From a virus: a stretch of DNA of 26,219 bases. The notes under the pieces are model-generated. The model was given only the letters and a program-made list of their open reading frames with translations. It ran no database searches and was not told the origin of the DNA. The translations under genes were made by a program, and so were the position numbers. Location of the stretch: positions 1 through 26,219 of IMG/VR virus record IMGVR_UViG_3300029910_000441; one strand, 5' to 3'. Shown here one piece after another: positions 1,806 to 12,940 of this stretch; within the stretch, counting starts at the first letter, position 1, and each line of letters begins with the position of its first letter.

Positions 1806-1972
1806 CCAGAACGCTAAAGGAAATCATTAAGGAAGCGGTGATCGGCGCCATGCTCGACGCGGAAAACAACGTGGCCAAGGCTGCGCGGATCTTGGGGGTC
1901 GGCCGGGCGACCGTGTACCGGAGGCTCAAGGAATACGGGATGCTCAAAAGGAACGTGAGGTCGATTCGATAA
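1802..1972 (+). CDS. Fis-type helix-turn-helix DNA-binding protein
   Basis: A 56-residue protein that is essentially one HTH_8 (Fis C-terminal type) domain. The segment NVAKAARILGVGRATVYRRL has the Fis/NtrC pattern, with the recognition helix around GRATVYRRL. Such domains bind DNA as dimers. I chose the ATG at 1802 because it overlaps the upstream stop as ATGA; a GTG at 1784 in the same frame would add six residues. Its TAA overlaps the ATG of the HerA-like ATPase (TAATG), so the two proteins are likely made together. That suggests it either regulates this cassette or recruits the ATPase to DNA; neither is shown. Confidence 0.8.
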   Translation: MTRTLKEIIKEAVIGAMLDAENNVAKAARILGVGRATVYRRLKEYGMLKRNVRSIR

Positions 1973-3720: not shown

Positions 3721-4127
3721 AAGCACTTTCTATGACGCAGCCGTGGGCATCGTTGGTAGCGCTCGAAGAAAAGCGAATCGAGACGCGCTCGTGGAAAACA
3801 CCGTACCGAGGGCCGTTGGCAATCCATGCGGCGAAAACGTATCCAGGATGGGCGAAGGAATGGTGCAAGGAACCCACGTTCGCTAAGGCGCTAGGCAATT
3901 GCTGCCCAGAACTCTATCGCGGCTCGATCGTGTGTGTGACGAGTTTGCTGGATTGTGTTCGGACAGAAGACATCCGTGACAAATTGGAGTCAAAGGAAAT
4001 AGCGTTTGGCGATTACGGGATGGCTCGGTGGGCATGGATTCTCGGTCCAGTGGTAAAGCGGTTTGGAAGCGTCGAGTTTCCGGCAACCGGGCATTTGGGA
4101 TTGTGGGAGTGGGACGAACGCTCGTAG
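3717..4127 (+). CDS. ASCH-domain (PUA-like) protein
   Basis: A 136-residue protein opening with the ASCH signature: SMTQPWASLVALEEKRIETR at about residues 5-24, then SWKTPYRGPLAIHAAKTYP. The ASCH fold is a PUA-like beta barrel, predicted to bind RNA or modified nucleotides; one bacterial member (YqfB) hydrolyses N4-acetylcytidine. The ATG at 3717 overlaps the ATPase stop as ATGA, so it is likely translationally coupled. The C-terminal GHLGLWEW is typical of phage ASCH proteins. Its role in phages is not established. Being next to a HerA-like ATPase, it could read modified DNA or RNA, but this is speculation. Confidence 0.85.
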   Translation: MKALSMTQPWASLVALEEKRIETRSWKTPYRGPLAIHAAKTYPGWAKEWCKEPTFAKALGNCCPELYRGSIVCVTSLLDCVRTEDIRDKLESKEIAFGDYGMARWAWILGPVVKRFGSVEFPATGHLGLWEWDERS

Positions 4128-5315: not shown

Positions 5316-5391
5316 GCCAGCGTAGTTCAACGGTAAGAACGCTTCTCTCATAAGGAAGAAATGCACGGTCCAATTCCGGCCGCTGGTACCA
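5316..5391 (+). tRNA. tRNA-Met (CAT)
   Basis: Acceptor GCCAGCG pairs with CGCTGGT, followed by A and an encoded CCA. D-stem GTTC/GAAC; anticodon stem CTTCT/GGAAG with loop CTCATAA, anticodon at 5349-5351. The T-arm is weak (only three good pairs) and its loop is TCCAATT, with C instead of U at position 55. A CAT anticodon could also be lysidine-modified Ile2. This is the first gene of the tRNA region. Confidence 0.85.
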
Positions 5392-5410
5392 CTAACCTCG
5401 AAAGGACACT

Positions 5411-5770
5411 ATGAAAGCTGAACAGGTTGCAAGGGTTTGCCATGAGGCCAATCGGGCCTACTGTGAGGCGATCGGCGATAACTCGCAGGTACGGTGGGAA
5501 GATGCTCCGACGTGGCAACGCCAGTCGGCCATCACTGGCGTTGAGTTCGTTTTAAAGTCGCTGAGAGAATCAAAAACACTTCCGAGCCCGAGCATGTCGC
5601 ACGAAAGTTGGTTGCGGGAGAAGACGAAGGATGGATGGAAATACGGGCCAGTGAAGGACGTCGAGAAGAAAGAGCATCCGTGTTTTGTTTCTTACGATCA
5701 ATTGCCGCCGCAGCAGCGCGCGAAAGATTTTCTGTTTCTGGCGGTCGTGGAAGCGTTGTACAATTTCTGA
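5411..5770 (+). CDS. RyR-domain protein
   Basis: A 119-residue protein that is essentially one RyR (ryanodine-receptor repeat) domain: ARVCHEANRAYCEA at about 7-20, WQRQSAITGVEF at 35-46, DGWKYGPVKD at 74-83, then HPC and the QRAKDFLFLAVV helix at about 102-113. These are the hallmark blocks of bacterial and phage RyR domains. Prokaryotic RyR domains have been proposed, from comparative genomics, to bind nucleotide ligands in conflict systems; no reaction is known. The start has GAAAGG upstream. The gene sits between two CAT-anticodon tRNAs, and the second begins on the base right after its TGA stop. Confidence 0.85.
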   Translation: MKAEQVARVCHEANRAYCEAIGDNSQVRWEDAPTWQRQSAITGVEFVLKSLRESKTLPSPSMSHESWLREKTKDGWKYGPVKDVEKKEHPCFVSYDQLPPQQRAKDFLFLAVVEALYNF

Positions 5771-5848
5771 CGCGGACATTGAGCTACGGTGCGCTCGCAT
5801 CTCTCATAAGGATGGCCTTATCTGGTTCAACTCCAGAGTCCGCAACCA
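5771..5848 (+). tRNA. tRNA-Met (CAT), initiator-like acceptor end
   Basis: Acceptor CGCGGAC pairs with GTCCGCA, leaving C1 opposite A72, the hallmark of bacterial initiator tRNA; A73 and CCA are encoded. D-stem GAGC/GCTC; anticodon stem CATCT/GGATG, loop CTCATAA, anticodon 5805-5807. It lacks the three G:C pairs usual in the initiator anticodon stem and has one extra base between acceptor and D-stem. It begins directly after the RyR gene stop. Confidence 0.88.
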
Positions 5849-5850
5849 AC

Positions 5851-5924
5851 TGGGAAGTCGGCCAAAGGTAGGCCGCTGGGCCTTGGACTCAGCTATCCAC
5901 GTTCGAGTCGTGGCTTCCCAGCCA
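5851..5924 (+). tRNA. tRNA-Gln (TTG), C33
   Basis: Acceptor TGGGAAG/CTTCCCA with G73 and encoded CCA; the U1:A72 pair and G73 are usual Gln features. D-stem GGCC/GGCC; anticodon stem CTGGG/CTCAG, loop CCTTGGA, anticodon 5883-5885. Position 33 (5882) is C rather than the near-universal U. T-loop TTCGAGT is normal. Confidence 0.9.
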
Positions 5925-5931
5925 AATTTTT

Positions 5932-6005
5932 GCGCAGTTAGGTCAGTGGTAGACCGCCCGCCTCCAAATCGGGAAACGGAAGTTCGATCCTTTCGCTGCG
6001 CGCCA
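5932..6005 (+). tRNA. tRNA-Trp (CCA)
   Basis: Acceptor GCGCAGT/GCTGCGC, G73, encoded CCA. D-stem GGTC/GACC; anticodon arm CCCGC-CTCCAAA-TCGGG with anticodon 5964-5966 and one C/T mismatch next to the loop. T-arm GGAAG/CTTTC with loop TTCGATC. Confidence 0.92.
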
Positions 6006-6006
6006 C

Positions 6007-6096
6007 GGAGAAATGCTCGAGAGGCTGAAGAGGTCCGACTGCTACTCGGACGTGCTGTAAAAGGCACCGTTGGTTCGAATCCAACTTTCTCCGCCA
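6007..6096 (+). tRNA. tRNA-Ser (GCT)
   Basis: Class II tRNA. Acceptor GGAGAAA/TTTCTCC, G73, encoded CCA. Anticodon stem TCCGA/TCGGA, loop CTGCTAC, anticodon 6041-6043. The long variable arm follows the anticodon stem. T-loop TTCGAAT. Confidence 0.94.
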
Positions 6097-6100
6097 GTTC

Positions 6101-6176
6101 GGTCCCGTAGCTCAATTGGAAAGAGTTCCAGATTACGAATCTGGCGATCGCGGTTCGAATCCGTGCGGGACCGCCA
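6101..6176 (+). tRNA. tRNA-Arg (ACG)
   Basis: Acceptor GGTCCCG/CGGGACC, G73, encoded CCA. D-stem GCTC/GAGT; anticodon stem CCAGA/TCTGG, loop TTACGAA, anticodon 6135-6137. A34 would be read as inosine if the host TadA modifies it. T-loop TTCGAAT. Confidence 0.94.
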
Positions 6177-6181
6177 AGTTT

Positions 6182-6269
6182 GGAGCAATGGCACAGCGGC
6201 AACTGCCCCGGACTGTAAATCCGGTGTCCCTTCGGGACTACGAAGGTTCGAGTCCTTCTTGCTCCACCA
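6182..6269 (+). tRNA. tRNA-Tyr (GTA)
   Basis: Class II tRNA. Acceptor GGAGCAA/TTGCTCC, A73, encoded CCA. D-stem GGCA/TGCC; anticodon stem CCGGA/TCCGG, loop CTGTAAA, anticodon 6215-6217. Long variable arm contains CCCTTCGGG. T-loop TTCGAGT. Confidence 0.94.
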
Positions 6270-6274
6270 TTTTC

Positions 6275-6350
6275 GGTTCCGTCGTCCAATTGCACAGGAC
6301 ACTACCCTCCGAAGGTAAAAATTCCGGTTGGAATCCGGACGGGACCGCCA
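6275..6350 (+). tRNA. tRNA-Arg (CCG), C19:G56 elbow
   Basis: Acceptor GGTTCCG/CGGGACC, G73, encoded CCA. D-stem GTCC/GGAC with loop AATTGCACA, so G18 is kept but position 19 (6293) is C. The T-arm TCCGG/CCGGA has loop TTGGAAT, so position 56 (6330) is G. The universal G19:C56 pair is thus replaced by C19:G56. Anticodon loop CTCCGAA, anticodon 6309-6311; the anticodon stem CTACC/GGTAA has one mismatch at its outer end. Confidence 0.9.
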
Positions 6351-6396
6351 AATAACTATTGCAAGCCTGAAGTCTTTCCTGTAAAACAGCAAGCGT

Positions 6397-6471
6397 GCTC
6401 TCGTGGCCGAATGGACTAGGCGCTCGAGTCCTAATCGAGTAACGCGAGTTCGAATCTCGCCGAGAGCTCCA
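6397..6471 (+). tRNA. tRNA-Arg (CCT)
   Basis: Acceptor GCTCTCG/CGAGAGC, T73, encoded CCA. D-stem GCC/GGC; anticodon stem CTCGA/TCGAG, loop GTCCTAA, anticodon 6430-6432. T-arm GCGAG/CTCGC with loop TTCGAAT. The 13 bases AAAACAGCAAGCG just upstream (6383-6395) recur before tRNA-Glu at 11282-11294. Confidence 0.92.
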
Positions 6472-6472
6472 T

Positions 6473-6549
6473 GCGAGCGTGGTGCAACTGGTAGACACGG
6501 TGACCCCAAAAGTCATTTTTTGCGAGTTCGAATCTCGCCGCTCGCACCA
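6473..6549 (+). tRNA. tRNA-Leu-like (CAA), C33, short variable loop
   Basis: Acceptor GCGAGCG/CGCTCGC, A73, encoded CCA. The D-arm (GTG/CAC with loop containing GGTAGA) is Leu-like. Anticodon stem GTGAC/GTCAT, loop CCCAAAA, anticodon 6507-6509, with C at position 33 (6506). Only TTTTT separates the anticodon stem from T-stem GCGAG, so the class II variable arm expected of Leu tRNA is absent. Charging identity is therefore uncertain. Confidence 0.8.
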
Positions 6550-6563
6550 ATATTGGAGGGGTG

Positions 6564-6704
6564 ATGGGAACTACTTGTAAGCACGGAACGGACAATATGT
6601 TTACGTGTCCTCATTGCCGAAAAGAATTTAAGGTTTCCGAAGCGATCAGGGAGCCGAGAAAAGAAGAGAAGTCGATGGAAGAGCAGCAACGAGAAGTTGA
6701 GTGA
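6564..6704 (+). CDS. small zinc-finger protein (46 aa)
   Basis: A 46-residue frame with a GGAGGGG ribosome binding site just before the ATG. C5-K-H7 followed by CPHC at 15-18 gives a plausible Cys/His zinc knuckle. The second half is highly charged (Glu/Lys/Arg). It lies between two Leu tRNA genes, and the next tRNA starts four bases after the stop. No specific family is recognised; a nucleic-acid-binding role is inferred only from the knuckle and charge. Confidence 0.65.
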   Translation: MGTTCKHGTDNMFTCPHCRKEFKVSEAIREPRKEEKSMEEQQREVE

Positions 6705-6708
6705 CATT

Positions 6709-6791
6709 GCGCGAGTGGTGGAATGCATACACATCAGCCTTAGAAGCTGACGCCTTCGGGATTGGGGGTTCGACTCCCTCCTCGCGCACCA
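6709..6791 (+). tRNA. tRNA-Leu (TAG)
   Basis: Class II tRNA. Acceptor GCGCGAG/CTCGCGC, A73, encoded CCA. Anticodon stem TCAGC/GCTGA, loop CTTAGAA, anticodon 6741-6743; long variable arm CGCCTTCGGG. The D-loop reads AATGCATA (G18, C19) while the T-loop is normal TTCGACT (C56), so the 19:56 pair appears to be lost here. Confidence 0.92.
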
Positions 6792-6801
6792 AATTTAGAA
6801 T

Positions 6802-6878
6802 GCGCCACTATCCCAACTGGAAGAGGACGTGGACTTAAAATCCACTAGATCGGAGTTCGAATCTCCGGTGGCGCACCA
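6802..6878 (+). tRNA. tRNA-Leu anticodon (TAA), class I shape
   Basis: Acceptor GCGCCAC/GTGGCGC, A73, encoded CCA. Anticodon stem GTGGA/TCCAC, loop CTTAAAA, anticodon 6836-6838, which reads UUA. The variable loop is only TAGAT, so this is not a class II tRNA although all usual Leu tRNAs are. T-arm CGGAG/CTCCG with loop TTCGAAT. Which synthetase charges it is unclear. Confidence 0.85.
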
Positions 6879-6888
6879 AAATCGTGCC

Positions 6889-7140
6889 ATGAAATCAGCG
6901 TGCCCAAATTGCTTAACTCCGAGCGATCTCCCGGTAAACATACGGCCGGATTGGTTCGTTCTCTGCTTTTCCTGCGCGTTCATTGGGGTTCTCGCGGCGG
7001 ATATGAGCGTGCGAGAGGCAACCGATAGGGATTTCGCCGAGGCGACCGAGTACGCTAGGGGCTGGATGTATCGCAAACAGAACCTCGTGTTGATAAATAT
7101 TTACAGAAAAAGGTTTGCACGGCACGCGGACATGAATTAA
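6889..7140 (+). CDS. small zinc-ribbon protein (83 aa)
   Basis: An 83-residue protein with CPNC at 5-8 and CFSC at 26-29, a compact four-cysteine zinc ribbon. The C-terminal half is helical and basic (YARGWMYRKQN and a final Arg/Lys/His-rich stretch). The frame opens further upstream inside tRNA-Leu, so the ATG at 6889, just after that tRNA, is the sensible start; no strong ribosome binding site is visible. Function unknown. It resembles the other ribbons of this window in layout rather than in sequence. Confidence 0.7.
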   Translation: MKSACPNCLTPSDLPVNIRPDWFVLCFSCAFIGVLAADMSVREATDRDFAEATEYARGWMYRKQNLVLINIYRKRFARHADMN

Positions 7141-7148
7141 ATTTCTTT

Positions 7149-7226
7149 GGGGCTGTGCGGTAAGGGACATCCGGCCCGTCTTCTAAGCGGGATAATTTGA
7201 GAGTTCGAATCTCTCCAGCCCCACCA
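7149..7226 (+). tRNA. tRNA-Arg (TCT)
   Basis: Acceptor GGGGCTG/CAGCCCC, A73, encoded CCA. D-stem CGG/CCG; anticodon stem CCCGT/GCGGG, loop CTTCTAA, anticodon 7182-7184. T-arm GAGAG/CTCTC with loop TTCGAAT. Confidence 0.92.
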
Positions 7227-7228
7227 GT

Positions 7229-7303
7229 GGCGCGGTAGCCAAGTGGGAAGGTTGGGGCCTGCAAAGTCCCGATGAGCGTGTTCGATTCACGCCCGCGCCT
7301 CCA
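7229..7303 (+). tRNA. tRNA-Cys (GCA)
   Basis: Acceptor GGCGCGG/CCGCGCC with U73 (a Cys identity base) and encoded CCA. D-stem GCC/GGT; anticodon stem GGGGC/GTCCC, loop CTGCAAA, anticodon 7261-7263. T-arm GCGTG/CACGC with loop TTCGATT. It starts three bases after the previous tRNA. Confidence 0.94.
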
Positions 7304-7327
7304 AGATTCGTAAGGGAGGAAAAAGTA

Positions 7328-7528
7328 ATGTTTTTGACTCCTGTAGTTACAGTGCTTGAAAAGATTGCCGTGTCGATCAACAGGCTTACAACTGCTGTCG
7401 ATACGAGAGGAGAACAGATTTCTAATGTTCTCGGTCAAATCTTGAAGGCACTTCAGAAGCAACCACAAGTACCTGGGGAGGCGGTTTCCCTGAAACTCAC
7501 CCTCGGTAAAGCAGTGCAACAGAAGTAA
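7328..7528 (+). CDS. small hypothetical protein (66 aa)
   Basis: A 66-residue protein with a GGGAGGA ribosome binding site before the ATG at 7328. Residues 1-45 form an amphipathic helix pattern (regular Val/Leu/Ile spacing with Lys/Glu/Asn), consistent with a short coiled coil. No domain recognised. It is followed 21 bases later by the Ig-like gene, so the two are probably co-transcribed. Confidence 0.65.
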   Translation: MFLTPVVTVLEKIAVSINRLTTAVDTRGEQISNVLGQILKALQKQPQVPGEAVSLKLTLGKAVQQK

Positions 7529-7549
7529 AATTCACGGAGGAAAAACGAA

Positions 7550-7930
7550 ATGGCAAACCCACAGATTGGAGATACCCAGCAGGCGCCTTATTCTGTAACC
7601 GGTTTGGACGCGGACGGACAGCCGGCGCAGCTTGAACCAGGTGATGTGGTAACTGTCACGTCTTCGGCCCCAGCATCGCTTTCGGTTGTTCCCGACGCAA
7701 CGCCGGCTCCGGGCTCGCTCGCTTCCGGTCAGTTGGTTGGCGGAACGACGCTTGCGGTTGGAGTGACGATCACGGCGGTCATCACGCACACGGACGGCAC
7801 TTCGGCAACGGCGACGGATACGATTGACGTCGTTTCCGGTGAGGCTGCAACGTTGGCAATCGGGCTCGGCGCACCTGTGTCGCAGACGCAGCCACCGGCG
7901 CCGGCTTCGGCTCGTCAGGCTGGTCGGTAA
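7550..7930 (+). CDS. Ig-like domain protein
   Basis: A 126-residue protein with a GGAGG ribosome binding site. The composition (Thr, Val, Ser, Gly, Ala, almost no Lys) and the alternating beta pattern, such as GDVVTVTSSAPASLSVVPD and VTITAVITHTDGTSATATD, match a single bacterial Ig-like (Big-type) beta-sandwich. The tail is Pro/Ala-rich. Single Ig-like proteins in phages often decorate the capsid or tail, but this one lies in the tRNA region far from the head genes, so its location in the particle is unproven. Confidence 0.65.
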   Translation: MANPQIGDTQQAPYSVTGLDADGQPAQLEPGDVVTVTSSAPASLSVVPDATPAPGSLASGQLVGGTTLAVGVTITAVITHTDGTSATATDTIDVVSGEAATLAIGLGAPVSQTQPPAPASARQAGR

Positions 7931-7951
7931 CATCGTTTCGTAGTTTGGGTT

Positions 7952-7992
7952 GGGGTACGCGAAGGGCAAGCCGTGTAGACGGCGCGTACCCC
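7952..7992 (+). ncRNA. structured RNA candidate A (bulged hairpin)
   Basis: GGGGTACGC (7952-7960) pairs perfectly with GCGTACCCC (7984-7992). Inside it, stacked directly on the 3' side, GCCGT (7970-7974) pairs with ACGGC (7979-7983) around GTAG. A 9-base bulge, GAAGGGCAA, remains on the 5' side. It lies in a 130-base stretch without a gene, between the Ig-like gene and a tRNA. No known RNA family is recognised. Confidence 0.4.
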
Positions 7993-8016
7993 GGCCATCA
8001 TTCAAGTTTGTTTTAA

Positions 8017-8047
8017 TAGGCCGATCCTTGTTAAAGGAAACGGCCTA
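8017..8047 (+). ncRNA. structured RNA candidate B (two-step hairpin)
   Basis: TAGGCCG (8017-8023) pairs with CGGCCTA (8041-8047), and inside it TCCTT (8025-8029) pairs with AAGGA (8034-8038) around GTTA. It stands just upstream of the unusual class II tRNA at 8061. Its 3' strand overlaps a TATAAT motif at 8046-8051. Confidence 0.35.
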
Positions 8048-8051
8048 TAAT
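8046..8051 (+). promoter_or_regulatory. possible -10 element (TATAAT)
   Basis: A perfect TATAAT lies about 10 bases before the tRNA gene at 8061, the right distance for transcription to start at or just before the tRNA. I find no convincing -35 hexamer at 16-18 bases, so this is tentative. Confidence 0.25.
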
Positions 8052-8060
8052 TTTAATATG

Positions 8061-8152
8061 GGTCGCCAGCACTGGGTGCGGGTTCGGCTTATACCCGAGC
8101 GAGATTCCCGGATTGGGGAGACGGCACGGATCGTAACCGTGGGCGACCACCA
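8061..8152 (+). tRNA. unusual class II tRNA, anticodon possibly TAT
   Basis: Acceptor GGTCGCC/GGCGACC is perfect, with A73 and encoded CCA. T-stem CACGG/CCGTG encloses loop ATCGTAA, in which the usual U54/A58 pair is exchanged to A54/U58. The best anticodon arm is TTCGG-CTTATAC-CCGAG, giving TAT (Ile, AUA) with a normal U33. The roughly 25-base region before the T-arm holds TCCC/GGGA and resembles a long variable arm. The D-arm is poor. It may be a real but divergent tRNA or a decayed one. Confidence 0.55.
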
Positions 8153-8154
8153 TC

Positions 8155-8242
8155 GGAAGGCACTGCTGCAAGGGCGGCAACTGGCCCTGAAAGCCAGGGC
8201 GTCTCCAACGGGACGGGGGTTCGAATCCTCTGCCTTCCGCCA
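8155..8242 (+). tRNA. tRNA-Ser (TGA), C33
   Basis: Class II tRNA. Acceptor GGAAGGC/GCCTTCC, G73, encoded CCA. Anticodon stem CTGGC/GCCAG, loop CCTGAAA, anticodon 8188-8190, with C at position 33 (8187). Variable arm GTCTC-CAAC-GGGAC. T-loop TTCGAAT. Starts three bases after the preceding tRNA. Confidence 0.92.
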
Positions 8243-8252
8243 AATTTCATTT

Positions 8253-8266
8253 GTCCAGATATGGAC
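8253..8266 (+). repeat. palindromic hairpin repeat, copy 2 (inverted orientation)
   Basis: GTCCAGATATGGAC is the exact reverse complement of the core of copy 1 (GTCCATATCTGGAC). It lies between tRNA-Ser and tRNA-Ile and ends four bases before the latter. Confidence 0.7.
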
Positions 8267-8270
8267 GAAT

Positions 8271-8344
8271 GGTGGCGTAGCTCAGTGGCAGAGCTCGCGG
8301 TCGATAACCGCGCGACGGGTGTTCGATTCACCACGTCACCACCA
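8271..8344 (+). tRNA. tRNA-Ile (GAT), C33
   Basis: Acceptor GGTGGCG/CGTCACC, A73, encoded CCA. D-stem GCTC/GAGC; anticodon stem CGCGG/CCGCG, loop TCGATAA, anticodon 8303-8305. Positions 32-33 read TC instead of the usual CT, so position 33 (8302) is C. T-loop TTCGATT, with one mismatch at the base of the T-stem. Confidence 0.92.
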
Positions 8345-8346
8345 AC

Positions 8347-8420
8347 GCTGACTTCGTACAATGGAAGTACTCTCGTTTGAAGCACGAGCAACGTCCGTTC
8401 GATTCGGACAGTCAGCGCCA
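8347..8420 (+). tRNA. tRNA-Phe (GAA)
   Basis: Acceptor GCTGACT/AGTCAGC, encoded CCA. Discriminator is G, whereas Phe tRNAs usually have A. D-stem GTAC/GTAC; anticodon stem CTCGT/ACGAG, loop TTGAAGC, anticodon 8379-8381. T-arm GTCCG/CGGAC, loop TTCGATT. Confidence 0.92.
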
Positions 8421-8435
8421 CTCTTAGGAGGAGCA

Positions 8436-8807
8436 ATGAAAAAGCCGTATGAGTATGCTGACGAATTGGTGACCACCGGTGGAAAGGATGCTCTTGAGCA
8501 CCTTGAAACGAATATCAAAACTCACACGACTCGTTTTCGCTTGTACACTGCAATTCACAGCTATTCAATTTCAATGATTCTCCCGTCGCCAGAGAAGCCA
8601 AACGGTTATATGGGTTGTATTGCATCTTGTCGCGCTCCGTATCCCGGAGAGACGCACACGCGAGGGAATGATTTGCCGGATGGGCCGTACAGCGATGAAA
8701 CGTGGCACGCAATCCTGGCTGCCATTGTGAGGTATGAGATTTTGCCGCTCTATCGGAGTTCTGGGTTTATTCCAGTGCGAAACACGGGTACTGAAGCGAA
8801 TGCTTGA
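8436..8807 (+). CDS. hypothetical protein
   Basis: A 123-residue protein with a strong AGGAGGA ribosome binding site before the ATG at 8436; the frame is open further upstream through tRNA-Phe, which I exclude. It looks like a compact alpha/beta protein with aromatic residues in the middle and a helix (WHAILAAIVRYEILPLY) near the C-terminus. No family is recognised. Its TGA overlaps a TTGACG hexamer that may be the -35 box of the promoter for the next tRNAs. Confidence 0.7.
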   Translation: MKKPYEYADELVTTGGKDALEHLETNIKTHTTRFRLYTAIHSYSISMILPSPEKPNGYMGCIASCRAPYPGETHTRGNDLPDGPYSDETWHAILAAIVRYEILPLYRSSGFIPVRNTGTEANA

Positions 8808-8832
8808 CGGTCGCTCGCTGTTTAGATACCAT
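8804..8832 (+). promoter_or_regulatory. possible sigma70-type promoter for tRNA-Val
   Basis: TTGACG (8804-8809), a 17-base spacer, then TACCAT (8827-8832). The predicted start, around 8839, coincides with the first base of tRNA-Val at 8840. The -10 box is weak (four of six). Confidence 0.35.
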
Positions 8833-8839
8833 TCATTTC

Positions 8840-8912
8840 GCCGGCCTTGTCGTCTGGTGACGGCCCTCCCCTTACAAGGGAGTTAAGCAGGATTCGATTT
8901 CCTGGGTCGGTA
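8840..8912 (+). tRNA. tRNA-Val (TAC), no encoded CCA
   Basis: Acceptor GCCGGCC/GGTCGGT (two G:U pairs), A73, then CGC instead of CCA, so the end must be added by the host enzyme. Anticodon stem CTCCC/GGGAG, loop CTTACAA, anticodon 8873-8875. T-arm CAGGA/TCCTG, loop TTCGATT. Confidence 0.9.
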
Positions 8913-8913
8913 C

Positions 8914-8984
8914 GCCGGCATAGCTTAGTGACAAAGCATCGCATCGGTAATGCGACGACCTGAGTTTGATTCTCAGTGCTGGCT
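8914..8984 (+). tRNA. tRNA-Thr (GGT), C33, A19:U56 elbow
   Basis: Acceptor GCCGGCA/TGCTGGC, T73; the next bases are CCG, so CCA is not encoded. D-stem GCTT/AAGC with loop AGTGACA (G18, A19 at 8931); T-arm CTGAG/CTCAG with loop TTTGATT (U56 at 8967). The elbow pair is therefore A19:U56. Anticodon stem TCGCA/TGCGA, loop TCGGTAA, anticodon 8946-8948, with C33 at 8945. It is one base after tRNA-Val. Confidence 0.9.
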
Positions 8985-8986
8985 CC

Positions 8987-9060
8987 GGGAGTGTAATTCA
9001 GTGGAAGAAGCCCTCTCTCTTAAAGAGGAAACGAGTGTTCGATTCACTCCACTCCCACCA
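8987..9060 (+). tRNA. tRNA-Lys (CTT)
   Basis: Acceptor GGGAGTG/CACTCCC, A73, encoded CCA. Anticodon stem CCTCT/AGAGG, loop CTCTTAA, anticodon 9019-9021. T-arm GAGTG/CACTC, loop TTCGATT. Its first base takes the place where the A of the previous tRNA's CCA would be. Confidence 0.93.
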
Positions 9061-9067
9061 AGTTTAT

Positions 9068-9143
9068 TGGGCAGTAGCATAATTGGTATTGCGTTCCGCT
9101 GTTACCGGAAAGGATGACCGTTCGAATCGGTCCTGCCCAGCCA
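9068..9143 (+). tRNA. tRNA-Asn (GTT)
   Basis: Acceptor TGGGCAG/CTGCCCA with G73 and encoded CCA. Anticodon stem TTCCG/CGGAA, loop CTGTTAC, anticodon 9101-9103. T-arm GACCG/CGGTC, loop TTCGAAT. Confidence 0.93.
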
Positions 9144-9172
9144 ATTTTGTTGATTGTGATCGAGGAGGAAAT

Positions 9173-9544
9173 ATGAAATCGAAATACAAGTCGTTGCTCG
9201 TGTTCTTCGGCTTCTTGCTGTTCGCAACGGTTTTGATGGCGCAGACAGCGCCATCGGCGCCGGCCGCTCCAACGCAGTCGATGGGCATTGCGCAGACTGT
9301 CATCGTTCTTGCTGGGGTGGTTGCCTCGATACTGCAAGGCGTGAAGCAACTGGTCCCGCAGATTAACGGGAAGGTTGCCATAGCCATCAGCATCGCCGCG
9401 TCGCTTGCATTGGCTTATGCCGCCGCGCAGCCTGGGCAGGTGATCAGCATTCAATTTCTTATCACCACGCTCGGCACGGCGTTAGGCTCTAACGGCATTT
9501 ACGATTTCTTGAAGAAACCAAAAGCGCCAGTACCAGCGGCGTAA
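9173..9544 (+). CDS. membrane protein, holin-like
   Basis: A 123-residue protein with a GAGGAGGAAAT ribosome binding site. Residues 1-25 are a basic start plus hydrophobic stretch (SLLVFFGFLLFATVLMA) ending in AQT, like a cleavable signal peptide. Two further hydrophobic segments follow, at about 40-56 and 67-82, then a Thr/Gly-rich segment and a Lys/Pro-rich cytoplasmic-looking tail. This is the general architecture of small phage holins, and a DUF3309-like membrane peptide follows 26 bases later. No endolysin is visible nearby, so the holin call is an inference; it could be another phage membrane protein. Confidence 0.5.
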   Translation: MKSKYKSLLVFFGFLLFATVLMAQTAPSAPAAPTQSMGIAQTVIVLAGVVASILQGVKQLVPQINGKVAIAISIAASLALAYAAAQPGQVISIQFLITTLGTALGSNGIYDFLKKPKAPVPAA

Positions 9545-9570
9545 CCGGAGGTAGTCATGAGAGGTGACCG

Positions 9571-9756
9571 ATGATTTTGCTTATCATTGTGCTGATTCTG
9601 GTGTTCGGTGTGGGCGGCGGTTATTACGGCAATAGCCGCTGGGGAGCGCAGGGCGGGTTCGGGATGGGGCTGGGCACGATCCTGATAATCCTTTTGATTC
9701 TGTATCTGCTAGGTGCCTTTGGCGGCGGTGGCTTCGGGCACGGCAGATTGTTCTAA
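9571..9756 (+). CDS. DUF3309-like small membrane protein
   Basis: A 61-residue peptide made of two hydrophobic helices (residues 2-13 and 35-49) joined by a Gly-rich loop containing GGGYYGNSRWGAQGG, the pattern of the DUF3309 family found in many proteobacteria and some phages. It ends in a Gly-rich, His/Arg-containing tail. GAGGTGACCG precedes the ATG. The family has no known function; membrane insertion is clear from the sequence. It lies 26 bases after the holin-like gene and is probably co-expressed with it. Confidence 0.75.
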   Translation: MILLIIVLILVFGVGGGYYGNSRWGAQGGFGMGLGTILIILLILYLLGAFGGGGFGHGRLF

Positions 9757-9777
9757 GAGTGGCGCGTTCCGCGTGTT

Positions 9778-9871
9778 GACCCGAGCGCGGATTCACCGCG
9801 GGCTTAACAGCCCACATCGGGTCCAGAACGGGAAGCAGCTACCAAAAGTGCTGCGATGCGGCTAATACCGC
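9778..9871 (+). ncRNA. structured RNA candidate C (three-way junction plus two hairpins)
   Basis: In the 131 bases between the DUF3309-like gene and tRNA-Lys, GACCCGA (9778-9784) pairs with TCGGGTC (9817-9823). It encloses CGCGG/CCGCG (9786-9790/9796-9800) and GGC/GCC (9801-9803/9810-9812), a three-way junction. Two hairpins follow: GCAGC/GCTGC (9835-9839/9850-9854) and GCGG/CCGC (9858-9861/9868-9871). No coding frame or known RNA family is seen. Confidence 0.45.
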
Positions 9872-9887
9872 CTAGCGGCGCGTCAAC

Positions 9888-9961
9888 GGGCGATTAATTT
9901 AGTGGGAAAAGATCGGGCTTTTACCCCGAGAACGAAGGTTCGATTCCTTCATCGCCCACCA
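9888..9961 (+). tRNA. tRNA-Lys (TTT)
   Basis: Acceptor GGGCGAT/ATCGCCC, A73, encoded CCA. Anticodon stem TCGGG/CCCGA, loop CTTTTAC, anticodon 9920-9922. T-arm GAAGG/CCTTC, loop TTCGATT. U33 and the Lys anticodon, the classic target of host anticodon nucleases, are unchanged here. Confidence 0.93.
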
Positions 9962-9962
9962 A

Positions 9963-10036
9963 GCGGGTGTCGTATAGTGGAATTACCCCTGTCTTCCAAA
10001 CAGGTGACGAGTGTTCGATTCACTCCATCCGCTCCA
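9963..10036 (+). tRNA. tRNA-Gly (TCC)
   Basis: Acceptor GCGGGTG/CATCCGC, U73, encoded CCA. D-stem GTAT/TTAC; anticodon stem CCTGT/ACAGG, loop CTTCCAA, anticodon 9995-9997. T-loop TTCGATT. Confidence 0.93.
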
Positions 10037-10040
10037 TTTC

Positions 10041-10114
10041 GCCGATGTCGTCCAGTGGGAAGACGTCGATCTCGTACATCGAAGACGACTGTTCGATTCA
10101 GTCCATCGGCTCCA
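10041..10114 (+). tRNA. tRNA-Thr (CGT)
   Basis: Acceptor GCCGATG/CATCGGC, T73, encoded CCA. Anticodon stem TCGAT/ATCGA, loop CTCGTAC, anticodon 10073-10075. T-arm GACTG/CAGTC, loop TTCGATT. Confidence 0.93.
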
Positions 10115-10132
10115 ATTTCAGAAAGGATCGCC

Positions 10133-10543
10133 ATGACCGAAGCTCAAATCGAAGATGTCGGCGAAGCTTTGAACCGGCGCGTTCCGAAAAAATATCACGA
10201 GGGAGCTCCTCATCCGCGTCCAATTGGCAGGCCGTTTTTCACGGGTTTCAAAACCAATGTTCCCGCACAGAATTTGTCGGAGGAAGAAAACGCGAAGTTG
10301 GTGGCGGCCGTAGAAAAGCCCGGCGATTTAGGGTATGTGGCGCAATTTGTTTTTTACGCAAAGATTGCGGGGGGGCCGTTCTTTTACGTGAATCTTCCTA
10401 ATATGAAGGGCGGCAGGTACGAGATCGGCGAAAGCTTCGACATCGGCGAGGAGCGAGTGCATTGCGATATCTCGCAGCGGGATTTAGAGTCGATGTTGGA
10501 AGCTGGCTACAAAAAGATTTGTGAGATTTCTGGGGTTGTCTGA
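10133..10543 (+). CDS. hypothetical protein
   Basis: A 136-residue protein starting at the ATG at 10133 behind GAAAGGATCGCC; the frame is open further upstream across three tRNA genes, which I exclude. It appears to be a soluble alpha/beta protein with aromatic strands (GYVAQFVFYAKIAGGPFFYV at about 68-87) and an acidic C-terminal part with the helix DLESMLEAGYKKI. No domain recognised. Its last four codons, including the TGA, overlap the first 12 bases of tRNA-Glu, so translation and tRNA maturation compete for the same RNA. Confidence 0.7.
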   Translation: MTEAQIEDVGEALNRRVPKKYHEGAPHPRPIGRPFFTGFKTNVPAQNLSEEENAKLVAAVEKPGDLGYVAQFVFYAKIAGGPFFYVNLPNMKGGRYEIGESFDIGEERVHCDISQRDLESMLEAGYKKICEISGVV

Positions 10544-10605
10544 CAGTGGAAGTCAATCTCCCTCTCGAGGAGAAAACGCGGGTTCGATTCCCGCCAACCC
10601 TACCA
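10532..10605 (+). tRNA. tRNA-Glu (CTC)
   Basis: Acceptor GGGGTTG/CAACCCT (G1:U72), A73, encoded CCA. D-stem TGAC/GTCA; anticodon stem TCTCC/GGAGA, loop CTCTCGA, anticodon 10564-10566. T-arm GCGGG/CCCGC, loop TTCGATT. The upstream gene's stop codon lies in its D-stem. Confidence 0.92.
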
Positions 10606-10608
10606 AGT

Positions 10609-10710
10609 TCGCGGCGAGGGGGATACCGTTTGAATATTTTTGGTGAATAAAACGGCCGCTTGGCGGATGTTACGGTCCAAGCGCGTACCGCCCTACTTAG
10701 CTCGCCGCGA
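10609..10710 (+). ncRNA. structured RNA candidate D (long closing stem, two inner hairpins)
   Basis: TCGCGGCGAG (10609-10618) pairs perfectly with CTCGCCGCGA (10701-10710) over 10 bp. Inside, CCGTTT (10626-10631) pairs with AAACGG (10650-10655), and CGCTTGG (10657-10663) with CCAAGCG (10677-10683). GGCGG (10662-10666) could alternatively pair with CCGCC (10688-10692), suggesting a switch or pseudoknot. It fills the space between tRNA-Glu and tRNA-Thr. No known RNA family is recognised. Confidence 0.5.
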
Positions 10711-10721
10711 TTTAATTTCAC

Positions 10722-10796
10722 GCCGCCATAGCTCAATTGGTAGAGCCTCTCACTTGTAACGAGAAGACGAGGGATCGTAACCTTCTGGCGGCTCCA
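10722..10796 (+). tRNA. tRNA-Thr (TGT), altered T-loop
   Basis: Acceptor GCCGCCA/TGGCGGC, T73, encoded CCA. D-stem GCTC/GAGC; anticodon stem TCTCA/CGAGA (one A/C mismatch at the loop), loop CTTGTAA, anticodon 10755-10757. T-stem GAGGG/CCTTC with loop ATCGTAA: A54 (10774) and U58 (10778) replace the usual U54 and A58. Confidence 0.9.
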
Positions 10797-10812
10797 GTTT
10801 TGAGGGGTTTAT

Positions 10813-11271
10813 ATGGCAGACGTAATTGAAATGCAGCCGAAACAAGAACGGCATTCGCTTGAGAAGAAACGGAATGACGGTTACGTGATCGTTGAGGAGG
10901 TCGTCGATGGTAAGACGACCGGCAAACGATTCCATTGCGAGCACAATGTCTTAGAAGTCGATGAGCGCCGCGGGGTGGTGATATGCAAGACCTGTGGTGA
11001 CGAAATGTCTCCGCTTGAAGCTCTAAAGCTTCTCTATCGCACGATTTGGTGGGAAGAGAACACGCGCGAGCGGCAAATTGAGTACGATCAAAAGCGCGTT
11101 TCGAAGGTTCAAGTCGCGGCGCTTATTTGTCTTTACGAGGCCGGTGTGACGCCAGAGAAGTACGCCGAGCGGTGGAACAAAGAACACGCGCGCCGCGCTA
11201 CGCTGGAAATTGCGAAGGTTGCGGAGAAGCAAGTGGCGATTGACGGCGGGTCAGAAAAGCCAGTAGCCTAA
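10813..11271 (+). CDS. zinc-ribbon hypothetical protein
   Basis: A 152-residue protein. C42-E-H44 and C58-K-T-C61 form a plausible zinc ribbon after a charged N-terminus. The rest, residues 65-140, is largely helical with many Glu, Arg and Lys, including an aromatic patch (YRTIWWEEN). GAGGGG lies about 9 bases before the ATG. Function unknown; the Cys/His pattern fits the family of small ribbons scattered through this genome. Confidence 0.7.
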   Translation: MADVIEMQPKQERHSLEKKRNDGYVIVEEVVDGKTTGKRFHCEHNVLEVDERRGVVICKTCGDEMSPLEALKLLYRTIWWEENTRERQIEYDQKRVSKVQVAALICLYEAGVTPEKYAERWNKEHARRATLEIAKVAEKQVAIDGGSEKPVA

Positions 11272-11312
11272 AAAAAGTTGCAAAACAGCAAGCGCTGTGC
11301 AATTCTCTTTTC

Positions 11313-11389
11313 GGGGTTATCGTCTAGACGGCCCAGGATCCAAGATTTTCACTCTTGAGACGCCGGTTCGAATCCGGCTAACCCTGCCA
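11313..11389 (+). tRNA. tRNA-Glu (TTC)
   Basis: Acceptor GGGGTTA/TAACCCT (G1:U72), G73, encoded CCA. The D-arm matches the usual Glu form (TCGTCTAGA...GCCCAGGA). Anticodon stem CAAGA/TCTTG, loop TTTTCAC, anticodon 11348-11350. T-arm GCCGG/CCGGC, loop TTCGAAT. The AAAACAGCAAGCG motif shared with tRNA-Arg(CCT) lies upstream at 11282-11294. Confidence 0.93.
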
Positions 11390-11391
11390 AT

Positions 11392-11466
11392 GGGGGCGTA
11401 GTGACAAAGTGAACACGGCTCGCTTGCACCGAGCAAAAGCCCGTTAGAATCGGGTCGCCTCCACCA
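11392..11466 (+). tRNA. tRNA-Ala (TGC), U19:A56 elbow
   Basis: Acceptor GGGGGCG/CGCCTCC contains G3:U70, the alanine identity pair; A73 and CCA are encoded. D-stem GTG/CAC with loop ACAAAGTGAA, so G18 is followed by U19 (11410). T-arm GCCCG/CGGGT has loop TTAGAAT with A56 (11446). G19:C56 is thus replaced by U19:A56. Anticodon stem GCTCG/CGAGC, loop CTTGCAC, anticodon 11425-11427. Confidence 0.92.
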
Positions 11467-11471
11467 AGATC

Positions 11472-11574
11472 GACGCAGTATTTAGCGTCAACGAGCGAGG
11501 TCAAGTGCGATGGTCGGGCGCGCACAGGGACCAATTTATCCGCTTCGGCCCGCTAGATTGTAGAAGGGGCGGAT
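11472..11574 (+). ncRNA. structured leader candidate E upstream of the Acb2-like gene
   Basis: Three hairpins fill the 108-base gap before the gene at 11575: GACGC/GCGTC (11472-11476/11485-11489), TGGTC/GACCA (11511-11515/11529-11533) and ATCCGC/GCGGAT (11538-11543/11569-11574). The last hairpin's 3' arm touches the AAGGGG ribosome binding site and ends at the base before the ATG, so it could mask translation. Confidence 0.4.
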
Positions 11575-11838
11575 ATGACAAATCTGAAGGGAGCTTTGCC
11601 GATGCCAGCGCCAGGATTTCAGGGAATCACGGAACAAAATTTGAAGAACTGGTTTACGTACCACAAGCCCACCGAGGGGCAGAACGAACAGTACCTTGCC
11701 ATCCGCGAAGCGGCGCTTATTTTCGCGCGCACGATCGTGGCGAACACGCCAGTGAGCGCGGACCAGTCTTCTGCGATTCGGCATGTTCGTATGGCGACGA
11801 TGGAAGCGAATCAATCGATCGCTTGTGGCGGACACTAA
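11575..11838 (+). CDS. Acb2/Tad1-like cyclic-nucleotide sponge (anti-CBASS candidate)
   Basis: An 87-residue helical protein with the Acb2/Tad1 hairpin-domain pattern: WFTYHKPTEGQNEQY at 26-40, then IREAALIFARTI, the NTPVSADQSSAI turn at about 57-68, and MATMEANQSIA at 73-83. Members of this family in phages form oligomers that bind and sequester cyclic di- or trinucleotide signals of CBASS (and, for Tad1, Thoeris signals), so host abortive infection is not triggered. Here the aromatic YH-P motif, the P.S...S helix start and the ANxxIA end are present. An internal ATG at codon 10 is an alternative start. A stem overlapping the ribosome binding site may regulate it. It lies between tRNA-Ala and tRNA-Asp. 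Ligand preference cannot be told from sequence. Confidence 0.8.
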   Translation: MTNLKGALPMPAPGFQGITEQNLKNWFTYHKPTEGQNEQYLAIREAALIFARTIVANTPVSADQSSAIRHVRMATMEANQSIACGGH

Positions 11839-11845
11839 AAAGTTC

Positions 11846-11922
11846 GGAGGCGTAGAGGAGTGGCCGTCCTCGGCTCACTGTCTATGAGCAAACCGTGGGT
11901 TCGAATCCCATCGTCTCCGCCA
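11846..11922 (+). tRNA. tRNA-Asp (GTC)
   Basis: Acceptor GGAGGCG/CGTCTCC, G73 (Asp identity), encoded CCA. D-stem GAGG/CCTC; anticodon stem GCTCA/TGAGC, loop CTGTCTA, anticodon 11880-11882. T-arm GTGGG/CCCAT, loop TTCGAAT. Confidence 0.93.
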
Positions 11923-11924
11923 AT

Positions 11925-12000
11925 GGTAGATGAAGCCAAACGGTGCGGCGCCTGATTGTGGATCAGGTTCTAGTGGGTCCGACTCCCATCTTCTACCCCA
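11925..12000 (+). tRNA. tRNA-His (GTG)
   Basis: The extra 5' G (position -1, 11925) faces C73, the histidine hallmark; CCA is encoded. Acceptor GTAGATG/CTTCTAC has one T/T mismatch. D-stem GCC/GGC; anticodon stem CCTGA/TCAGG, loop TTGTGGA, anticodon 11958-11960. T-loop is TCCGACT, with C instead of U at position 55. Confidence 0.92.
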
Positions 12001-12006
12001 AGTTTC

Positions 12007-12082
12007 GGCGGAGTAGGGTAACGGCTATCCCACCTGCTTTGGGAGCAGGGAACTGCGAGTTCGAATCTCGCCTCTGCCACCA
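12007..12082 (+). tRNA. tRNA-Pro (TGG)
   Basis: Acceptor GGCGGAG/CTCTGCC, A73, encoded CCA. Anticodon stem CCTGC/GCAGG, loop TTTGGGA, anticodon 12040-12042. T-arm GCGAG/CTCGC, loop TTCGAAT. Confidence 0.93.
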
Positions 12083-12110
12083 ATTTCCACATACCACACA
12101 GAGAGGGGCA

Positions 12111-12182
12111 GGGAGGCGTAAAACCGCGGGCGAGAACCGAGGCGAAAGCCAAAGTACACCTGTTGGGTAGTGCGCGCCTCCC
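12111..12182 (+). ncRNA. structured RNA candidate F (closing stem with GAAA hairpin)
   Basis: GGGAGGCG (12111-12118) pairs perfectly with CGCCTCCC (12175-12182). Inside is GGC-GAAA-GCC (12141-12150), a GNRA-type hairpin, and a weaker ACC-TGTT-GGT. It occupies most of the 117-base gap between the two tRNA-Pro genes. No coding frame or known family. Confidence 0.45.
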
Positions 12183-12199
12183 CAGTCCCGTTTAAGATT

Positions 12200-12274
12200 C
12201 GAGGCGTAGCGAAGAGGAAACGCGCAGCTTTCGGGAAGCTGAGATCGCCAGTTCGAGTCTGGCCGCCTCGACCA
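12200..12274 (+). tRNA. tRNA-Pro (CGG)
   Basis: Acceptor CGAGGCG/CGCCTCG with the C1:G72 pair typical of bacterial Pro, A73, encoded CCA. D-stem GCG/CGC; anticodon stem CAGCT/AGCTG, loop TTCGGGA, anticodon 12232-12234. T-arm GCCAG/CTGGC, loop TTCGAGT. Confidence 0.94.
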
Positions 12275-12293
12275 AATTGGAGGTTTCGATGTC

Positions 12294-12722
12294 ATGGCTT
12301 TTACGCGCAAAGAAATCCAGCTGAGATATAGACTCAGGCATCCTGGTTATTGGAAGAAAGATGCGGCGCGTGCGGCAAAATGGGCGCGAGACAATCCGGA
12401 ATGGTTTAAAAACTATCGAAATACCCATAGAATTAAATTTCGCGAGTGGAGACGTAACAGTAAGATTAAACGAAAATACGGCATCAGTGCGGCTGAATAT
12501 GGTTCTTTGTTGAAAGCGCAGAATAATATTTGCGCAGTATGTAAGAAGCCATTTGCAGGTAATCTTCGATGTGGCACCGATCCAGTTCTTGATCATCGGC
12601 ATGGTGGCAAGATAAGAGAATTCATCCATCGCAAGTGCAATGTGGCGATTGGGTTTTTGTGTGATGATCCAGTGTTGTGTCGTTTGGCCGCTGAATATCT
12701 GGAAAAGCACGCTAGCTTTTGA
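12294..12722 (+). CDS. endonuclease VII-like HNH nuclease
   Basis: A 142-residue protein. The N-terminal 60 residues are very basic and helical and likely contact DNA. The C-terminal half is an Endonuclease_7-type domain: YGISAAEYGSLLKAQNNIC at about 62-80, C-AVC-K zinc ligands, LDHRH with catalytic Asp/His at about 100-104, then IHRKCNVAIGFLCDD. T4 gp49 of this family resolves branched DNA before packaging; many phage paralogs are free-standing homing nucleases. A GGAGG site is 10 bases before the ATG. Its position inside a tRNA array favours a mobile nuclease, but a resolvase role is possible. A 142-base gap with two hairpins follows. Confidence 0.85.
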   Translation: MAFTRKEIQLRYRLRHPGYWKKDAARAAKWARDNPEWFKNYRNTHRIKFREWRRNSKIKRKYGISAAEYGSLLKAQNNICAVCKKPFAGNLRCGTDPVLDHRHGGKIREFIHRKCNVAIGFLCDDPVLCRLAAEYLEKHASF

Positions 12723-12805
12723 TGATTTCATGGGGTATCCCCCAGTCGAGCCAATGCTGTTGCGGTTGTAAAACAAAAAGAACTGACAACAAAATGGAAC
12801 TACCT

Positions 12806-12828
12806 CTCGCGGCCTAACGGCTAGCGAG
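12806..12828 (+). ncRNA. hairpin with TAAC loop
   Basis: CTCGC/GCGAG (12806-12810/12824-12828) stacked on GGCC/GGCT (12811-12814/12819-12822) around TAAC, with a one-base bulge. It stands just before the terminator-like hairpin at 12835 in the gap after the endonuclease VII-like gene. Confidence 0.35.
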
Positions 12829-12834
12829 GCGCTT

Positions 12835-12860
12835 CCCGGTGAGCGAAATCACCGGGTTTT
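12835..12860 (+). terminator. possible intrinsic terminator
   Basis: CCCGGTGA (12835-12842) pairs perfectly with TCACCGGG (12849-12856) around GCGAAA and is followed by TTTT. The stem is strong but the T-run is short. It would end the transcript carrying the endonuclease VII-like gene, five bases before tRNA-Gln. Confidence 0.5.
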
Positions 12861-12864
12861 CAAT

Positions 12865-12940
12865 TCCGGGGTCGTCTAATTCGACAGGATAATCGCCTCT
12901 GAAGCGATCGATAAAGGTTTGAATCCTTTCCCCGGAGCCA
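12865..12940 (+). tRNA. tRNA-Gln (CTG), A19:U56 elbow
   Basis: Acceptor TCCGGGG/CCCCGGA (U1:A72), G73, encoded CCA, as expected for Gln. D-stem GTCT/GGAT with loop AATTCGACA (G18, A19 at 12884). T-arm AAAGG/CCTTT with loop TTTGAAT (U56 at 12920), so the elbow pair is A19:U56. Anticodon stem ATCGC/GCGAT, loop CTCTGAA, anticodon 12899-12901. Last tRNA of the region. Confidence 0.92.

Follow-up and report, generated by a model that had tools for sequence, protein, structure and literature searches.

Must the pair that joins the D loop to the T loop at the tRNA elbow be G19:C56, or will any Watson-Crick pair at positions 19 and 56 serve? The question is raised by four genes in the tRNA array of a 26.2-kb IMG/VR virus record (IMGVR_UViG_3300029910_000441; this whole 26,219-nucleotide stretch is called the window below), in which both letters of the pair are exchanged and pairing is kept. 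The canonical elbow, as set out in the available parts of two reviews (PMC7912444, PMC7609411), shares with these tRNAs a Watson-Crick 19:56 pair beside G18:U55 and an intact cloverleaf; unlike it, the phage tRNAs have C:G, A:U or U:A as the letters. The reviews call the pair conserved, and the word "phage" is absent from their main texts. A preliminary description of the window had noticed the exchanges and had offered escape from a host factor that recognises the elbow as a possible cause. We give a probability of roughly 0.8 to a plainer reading, that these are working phage tRNAs whose 19:56 pair has drifted by compensatory double mutation. Pairing at this position matters more than the letters that form it.

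Four tRNAs with an exchanged 19:56 pair

The tRNAs were numbered blind to the bases tested, with positions 54 to 60 counted back from the acceptor stem's 3' strand end and the T stem, and the D loop from the anticodon. Of the 33 tRNAs called by ARAGORN, 27 have G19:C56, four are swapped to another Watson-Crick pair, Leu(TAG) can be read as C19/C56, and Ile(TAT) was not numberable. The swapped genes all lie on the plus strand. tRNA-Arg(CCG) (6275..6350) has C19 (6293) facing G56 (6330), with D loop AATTGCACA and T loop TTGGAAT; tRNA-Thr(GGT) (8914..8986) has A19 (8931) facing U56 (8967), with D loop AGTGACA and T loop TTTGATT. In tRNA-Ala(TGC) (11392..11466), the sole Ala tRNA found in the array, U19 (11410) faces A56 (11446), with D loop CAAAGTGA and T loop TTAGAAT, and in tRNA-Gln(CTG) (12865..12940) A19 (12884) faces U56 (12920), with D loop AATTCGACA and T loop TTTGAAT. 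These are the eight letters given in the preliminary description, and they were borne out by both the base-blind numbering and a coordinate check, as was its statement that all four Watson-Crick pairs occur in one genome. G18 is constant in the four, as it had said; U55 is retained, and the 18:55 and 19:56 pairs can both form. None has G19:C56 as letters, which makes theirs a variant elbow.

All four swapped tRNAs have complete acceptor stems (7/7 pairs) and T stems (5/5). The D stem is 4/4 in Arg, Thr, and Gln and 3/4 in Ala, and the anticodon stem is 5/5 in Thr, Ala, and Gln and 4/5 in Arg. They score 47.9–58.7 bits with Rfam, where the cut-off is 29. Three of the genes encode the CCA end; that of Thr ends in TCC, and the next tRNA follows directly. 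Among the 32 numbered tRNAs of the array, changes at 19 and at 56 coincide (Fisher p = 1.4e-4, with the identity of the partner disregarded).

Misnumbering was ruled out for Arg, Thr, and Gln by the base-blind numbering. Ala is slightly less secure: it has a C at the expected A14, which leaves its D loop the least secure of the four, and its G-T step fits U19. Assembly error is also unlikely, because identical swapped tRNAs occur in four other contig records, which agree with the window wherever they overlap it. IMGVR_UViG_3300028780_000007 carries all four, identical to the letter, and IMG/VR 3300030617_000464 carries identical copies of Ala and Gln; 3300029943_000018 and 3300047576_000053 carry an identical Gln only, the other three falling outside these shorter pieces.

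The nearest tRNAs in the phage family of the window have the ordinary elbow. (L-numbers here and below are labels of viral or cellular loci taken from sequence records.) For Arg(CCG), Thr(GGT), and Ala(TGC), the nearest family member is in each case the tRNA of L081 with the same anticodon, at 70%, 76%, and 71% identity respectively, and each has GG with C56. A nearest-sequence search singled out no Gln, and the Gln(CTG) tRNAs parsed from six related loci all have GG and C56. Since the parsed tRNAs of the same anticodon in related phages keep G19:C56, the swaps look lineage-specific.

The preliminary description held that Leu(TAG), with C19 facing C56, breaks the rule of matched change. In this gene (6709..6791, plus strand), the D loop is AATGCAT and the T loop TTCGACT. 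The AATGCA- form of the D loop is common to Leu(TAG) of the window, Leu(CAA) of L079, and L081/L094; the Leu tRNAs of L082 and L085 read AATGGCAG, relative to which the AATGCA- form is one base shorter. The C19/C56 reading stands as one possibility, and it is also possible to read the gene as having lost one G of G18G19, with G19:C56 kept and position 18 changed. Leu(TAG) is therefore ambiguous, and is not a clean counter-example to the matching of 19 and 56.

Swaps in other viruses and in cells

To see how general the matching is, viral contigs were scanned with patterns that leave one side of the pair free. All counts from pattern scans refer to the matches listed (120 rows, or 118 for the looser pattern in cells). 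They are of distinct tRNAs with checked stems, where distinct means only that identical copies were collapsed, so that related copies remain and independence is overstated. The two scans, with 56 and with 19 left open, cover 191 loci, and 7/110 and 7/107 rows with poor stems were dropped. With 19 changed and 56 free, the matching Watson-Crick base stands at 56 in 89/102 tRNAs (71 A:U, 10 U:A, and 8 C:G). With 56 changed and 19 free, 90/100 have the partner at 19, 7 are G:U, and 3 are other combinations. A looser pattern with both sides changed (80 of 120 loci listed) gave 67/70 paired; among the three exceptions is a GG D loop read in the wrong register. The covariation claimed for the window is thus real, general, and far above chance.

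Three sets of tRNAs were assembled for rates. For the family of the window, a head protein search gave 68 related viral loci, and the tRNA-bearing stretches of their records were taken; with terminase and array loci added, all 76 loci were scanned with ARAGORN, and the records behind 49 of them were scanned whole for tRNA. From 243 rows, 21 duplicates and 11 with poor stems were removed, and 14 more by the D stem. Of the 197 numbered family tRNAs, 7 are swapped to another Watson-Crick pair. Besides the four of the window, these are Val(TAC) of L081 and two tRNAs of L084, His(GTG) and Pro(CGG). Matched changes, which the preliminary description had proposed to look for in related phages, do therefore occur there, and the swapped isotypes differ from genome to genome within the family.

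The second set comprises the tRNA-rich stretches of nine named phages (SCTP-2, Phosso, Eos, Atuin, KVP40, Myrna, CcrColossus, G, and GAP32), from which 15/262 rows were dropped and 23 more by the D arm. These phages are not a random sample, as SCTP-2, Phosso, Eos, and Atuin were picked via BLAST of one swapped Val tRNA, a search that returned distant tRNAs only; phage Tunturi_1 yielded no tRNA. It was observed that 5/224 numbered tRNAs are swapped, with no unmatched change. Four of the phages carry them, and all three alternatives to G:C are represented: A:U in Glu (UUC) of Bacillus phage G, in His of Salicola phage SCTP-2, and in Thr (CGU) of Sinorhizobium phage Phosso; C:G in Met (CAU) of Phosso; and U:A in Met of Cronobacter phage GAP32. 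The third set, 118 of 120 listed viral loci not chosen for 19:56 (59/602 rows dropped, 34 more by the D stem), has 5/509 tRNAs swapped and paired.

The exchange is also found in cellular genomes. When bacteria and archaea were scanned with the looser pattern (80 of 118 loci listed, after removal of one match on the edge of a contig and another whose acceptor stem was poor), 51/53 distinct stem-checked matches pair and two are A:A. Many Bacteroidales have A19:U56 in tRNA-Gly(UCC), Saccharibacteria and some Alphaproteobacteria have it in Ala(CGC), and Fructobacillus has it in Thr(AGT); Saccharibacteria also have U19:A56, in Gly(GCC). At five of eight Bacteroidales Gly loci inspected (chromosomal positions L229:5096, L224:6218, L219:2715, L235:3696, and L266:6379; L229 is a 5.26-Mb contig of Bacteroides bouchesdurhonensis), the swapped Gly(UCC) is part of a Thr-Tyr-Gly-Thr cluster that immediately precedes an open reading frame (ORF) with the G1 motif of EF-Tu. 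Here, the A19:U56 tRNA sits in a cellular setting that is presumably essential. The description of G19:C56 as nearly universal is too strong, and swaps are present in many viruses and some bacterial chromosomes. Taken together, the matched changes and their presence in named phages and bacterial genomes make it very probable that the swapped tRNAs are functional, as had been supposed.

The two A:A matches, in L222 and in an Acidobacteriaceae contig without an ARAGORN tRNA (L290), may be phage-borne or decayed. L222 itself, 6.8 kb long, is assigned in the records to an Elusimicrobia genome and has 27 tRNAs with several 19:56 swaps; it is probably phage DNA binned with that genome. In 99 genomes from the phylum of the Acidobacteriaceae genome, a strict fixed-length pattern gave 534 canonical matches and one swapped. 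The latter falls in L554 (1-3054), which looks like a phage array because it packs 11 tRNAs, three of them A19:U56 (Val, Ala, and Lys), into 3 kb beside an ORF judged by eye to encode an HNH-type endonuclease. A like-for-like comparison of phage and cell rates failed, since the strict D-arm pattern returned 15 canonical and no swapped tRNAs from the phage loci and 129 and none from the 118 viral loci; we do not claim from it, with its 534 to 1 in cells, that phages exceed cells in swap rate. A further sample of 126 cellular tRNAs neighbouring swapped genes is mostly from Bacteroidales and similar, and is biased and indicative only.

Neighbouring elbow contacts and the origin of the swaps

Alteration of the letters at 19:56 to escape recognition should make this pair more variable than those next to it. 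We therefore compared it with 53:61. In the family, 53:61 is swapped in 9/211 tRNAs and 19:56 in 7/197 (p = 0.80); the counts are 4/247 and 5/224 in the named phages (p = 0.74), and 2/543 and 5/509 in the 118 loci (p = 0.27). Pooled over these three unchosen sets, 17/930 tRNAs are swapped at 19:56 and 15/1001 at 53:61 (p = 0.60), a comparable rate of replacement that does not support escape.

Two further contacts of the elbow vary in a matched manner. tRNA-Thr(TGT) of the window (10722..10796, plus strand) has a normal G19:C56 and the T loop ATCGTAA, in which A54 and U58 replace U54 and A58. T loops of this kind recur in different tRNAs of the window, L078, L079, L084, L544, L545, L551, and L552. 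A54:U58 was seen in 6/211 family tRNAs, 5/247 of those in named phages, and 8/543 in the 118 loci, and U58 accompanies A54 in 30/33 cases among family and co-resident viral tRNAs. At 18:55, tRNAs with G55 tend to carry A18-G19 rather than G18-G19, which was first noticed in co-resident tRNAs. A scan with G55 and C56 fixed and the D loop free (120 loci listed; 2/106 rows dropped) found A18-G19 in 101/104 distinct stem-checked viral tRNAs, with examples in L404-L523, at L544:9924, and at L079:5858. Lys(TTT) of SCTP-2 is a case among the named phages, and A18:G55 occurs in 5/509 tRNAs of the 118-locus set. G18:U55 and A18:G55 look like alternative solutions to one contact, and hence like a second covariation of the elbow. 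"A18-G55" was not found described in the open-access literature searched. Suppressor-tRNA selection by the Steinberg group is said to have addressed 54:58 and 18:55, and may bear on A18:G55.

For the swapped pair, compensatory drift would proceed as follows. What the translation machinery would need at 19:56 is Watson-Crick pairing, with the pair stacked to form the flat outer face; G and C as such would not be required. A first mutation would weaken the pair to G:U or A:C, less often to another mismatch, and phage tRNAs, as supplements to the host pool, could persist in this state until a second change restored pairing. A path via G:U or A:C would make A:U the commonest outcome and U:A and C:G rarer ones. 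The predominance of A:U fits such two-step mutation, as do the single-change states among the matches listed (7 G:U, 5 A:C, and 6 U:C). We infer from this pattern in which order the two mutations came and that the tolerance is due to relaxed selection on phage tRNAs; that the swapped tRNAs are made and charged is likewise presumed. Experimental precedent comes from human mitochondrial tRNA-Ser(UGA), in which, according to the available part of PMC10412605, G19C abolishes charging, which A19:U56 or C19:G56 brings back. The same replacements work there, so that geometry and not identity counts. Unlike these laboratory mutants of one mitochondrial charging system, the swaps reported here are natural and occur in many phage and bacterial tRNAs; natural covariation thus extends the primacy of pairing over letters to many tRNAs.

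Several observations weigh against drift as a complete account. Of the 102 tRNAs with 19 changed, 11 keep C56 and 2 have another unpaired base. Five tRNAs of the 118 loci lack GG and keep U55-C56; the Gly of L629 is clearly A19/C56, and the others are hard to number. Leu(TAG) of the window and Leu(CAA) of L079 and L081 may be further unmatched changes. The window is richer in swaps than the nine named phages (4/32 vs 5/224, p = 0.016), with clustering over 17 genomes not clearly uneven (permutation p = 0.09). Arg tRNAs are over-represented among the swaps (12/80 vs 34/951, p = 9e-5), in non-independent data that include related copies and come mostly from contigs selected for swaps. Finally, co-resident tRNAs on contigs chosen for a 19:56 swap are swapped more often at 19:56 (39/834) than at 53:61 (19/945; p = 0.002), where the choice of contigs itself biases the set toward 19:56.

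The last three of these observations would suit adaptive escape, in which the altered elbow, still paired for use in translation, hides the phage tRNA from a nuclease, toxin, or modification enzyme of the host that reads G19:C56. A parallel exists, as the available part of PMC10264068 argues that phage tRNAs evade anticodon nucleases by mutations in the loop. Those variants likewise differ from host tRNAs at a position that is otherwise conserved, but in a different loop; the text makes no mention of elbow, D-loop, or T-loop, and the 19:56 swaps come without a shown link to cleavage. Escape nevertheless appears unlikely. The three unchosen sets drift equally at 53:61, the 46 swaps are distributed over 16 isotypes, the swap is present in bacterial genomes in a presumably core tRNA, and the excess of A:U is already predicted by the mutational path. 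PADLOC, run on ten ORFs of the window, returned one weak match to a restriction enzyme and no tRNA-directed system, and no nuclease or defence that reads the elbow at 19:56 was found in the literature searched. In a wider form, selection would favour phages that change the elbow letters at 18:55 as well as 19:56, and some host factor reading G18G19/U55C56 (a nuclease, a toxin, or an enzyme of quality control or modification) would then miss their tRNAs. This strikes us as equally doubtful; were it so, the Arg excess would mark a favoured target, and pairing would keep the tRNAs usable by the ribosome.

Two other origins are less probable still. The swapped tRNAs might have been taken ready-made from hosts that use the swapped pair, and swaps fixed in some cells (Gly of Bacteroidales, Ala and Gly of Saccharibacteria, and Thr of Fructobacillus) show that such donors exist. 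However, the nearest family tRNAs of Arg, Thr, and Ala have the same anticodon and G19:C56, and the 99 genomes from the phylum of the Acidobacteriaceae genome offered one swapped match, in a phage-like array; the right hosts may lie outside the genomes searched, and we regard acquisition as improbable. Least credible of all is that the swapped tRNAs are pseudogenes whose matches are accidental. Phage tRNA genes can be dispensable, and at least one gene of the array, Ile(TAT), is aberrant, but the frequency of matched change shows a constraint between 19 and 56, and the stems are intact, the Rfam scores good, and identical copies present in other contigs. As a general reading, decay is already refuted by the covariation.

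Compensatory drift thus leaves the exchange at 19:56 looking like tolerated repair by a second mutation and not a special weapon. The pair and its role are already known, as is the fact that its letters can be exchanged in a mitochondrial tRNA, and a 2023 structural paper states, in the part available, that G19:C56 is present in all canonical tRNAs (PMC10412605). No description of natural 19:56 swaps in phage tRNAs or bacterial genomes was found in the open-access literature, which lacks most subscription papers; the words elbow, D-loop, and T-loop are absent from PMC12851939. Across fast-evolving tRNAs, 19:56 behaves as any Watson-Crick pair does, and the non-Watson-Crick 18:55 contact varies likewise. 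Both are tertiary contacts that show hardly any variation in ordinary alignments of tRNAs, and natural covariation now provides evidence for them. Phages with culturable hosts (G, Phosso, SCTP-2, and GAP32) supply natural test molecules for asking which machines read the letters of the elbow and which its shape; candidates are RNase P, the ribosomal L1 stalk, TruB, TrmA, and EF-Tu. The variants also suggest that some phage tRNAs may go undetected when tRNA finders are tuned to G18G19 and TTCG.

The contig and its tRNA array

The window belongs to a tailed phage, as shown by genes for a P22/SU10-type portal, a terminase-like protein, and a major head protein. The tRNA array lies upstream of these genes, at 5316..12940 on the plus strand, and holds 34 tRNA genes, 33 from ARAGORN and one more from Rfam, with small ORFs interspersed. 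The Rfam-only tRNA (11926-11999) has the anticodon GTG (His) as read by eye, and if it is His, the specificities of the array include all 20 amino acids. A near-DNA search of the array against 50,697 phage records gave no match.

Beside or inside the array are genes for an ASCH-domain protein (3525-4127), a RyR-domain protein (5411-5770), and an endonuclease VII family protein (12294-12722). The ORF at 1972-3720 has a HerA-type ATPase domain (DUF87) by Pfam, where PHROGs instead labels it terminase. The Ile(TAT)-like gene called by ARAGORN (8061..8152, plus strand) has a degenerate, tiny D arm without G18G19, a long variable region, and the T loop ATCGTAA; it is absent from the Rfam tRNA matches of the window. 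It is doubtful as a normal tRNA and may be decayed, unusual, or a false call. In tRNA-Met(CAT) (5771-5848), C1 stands opposite A72, as is typical of the initiator tRNA in bacteria; finding an initiator tRNA in a phage would be notable.

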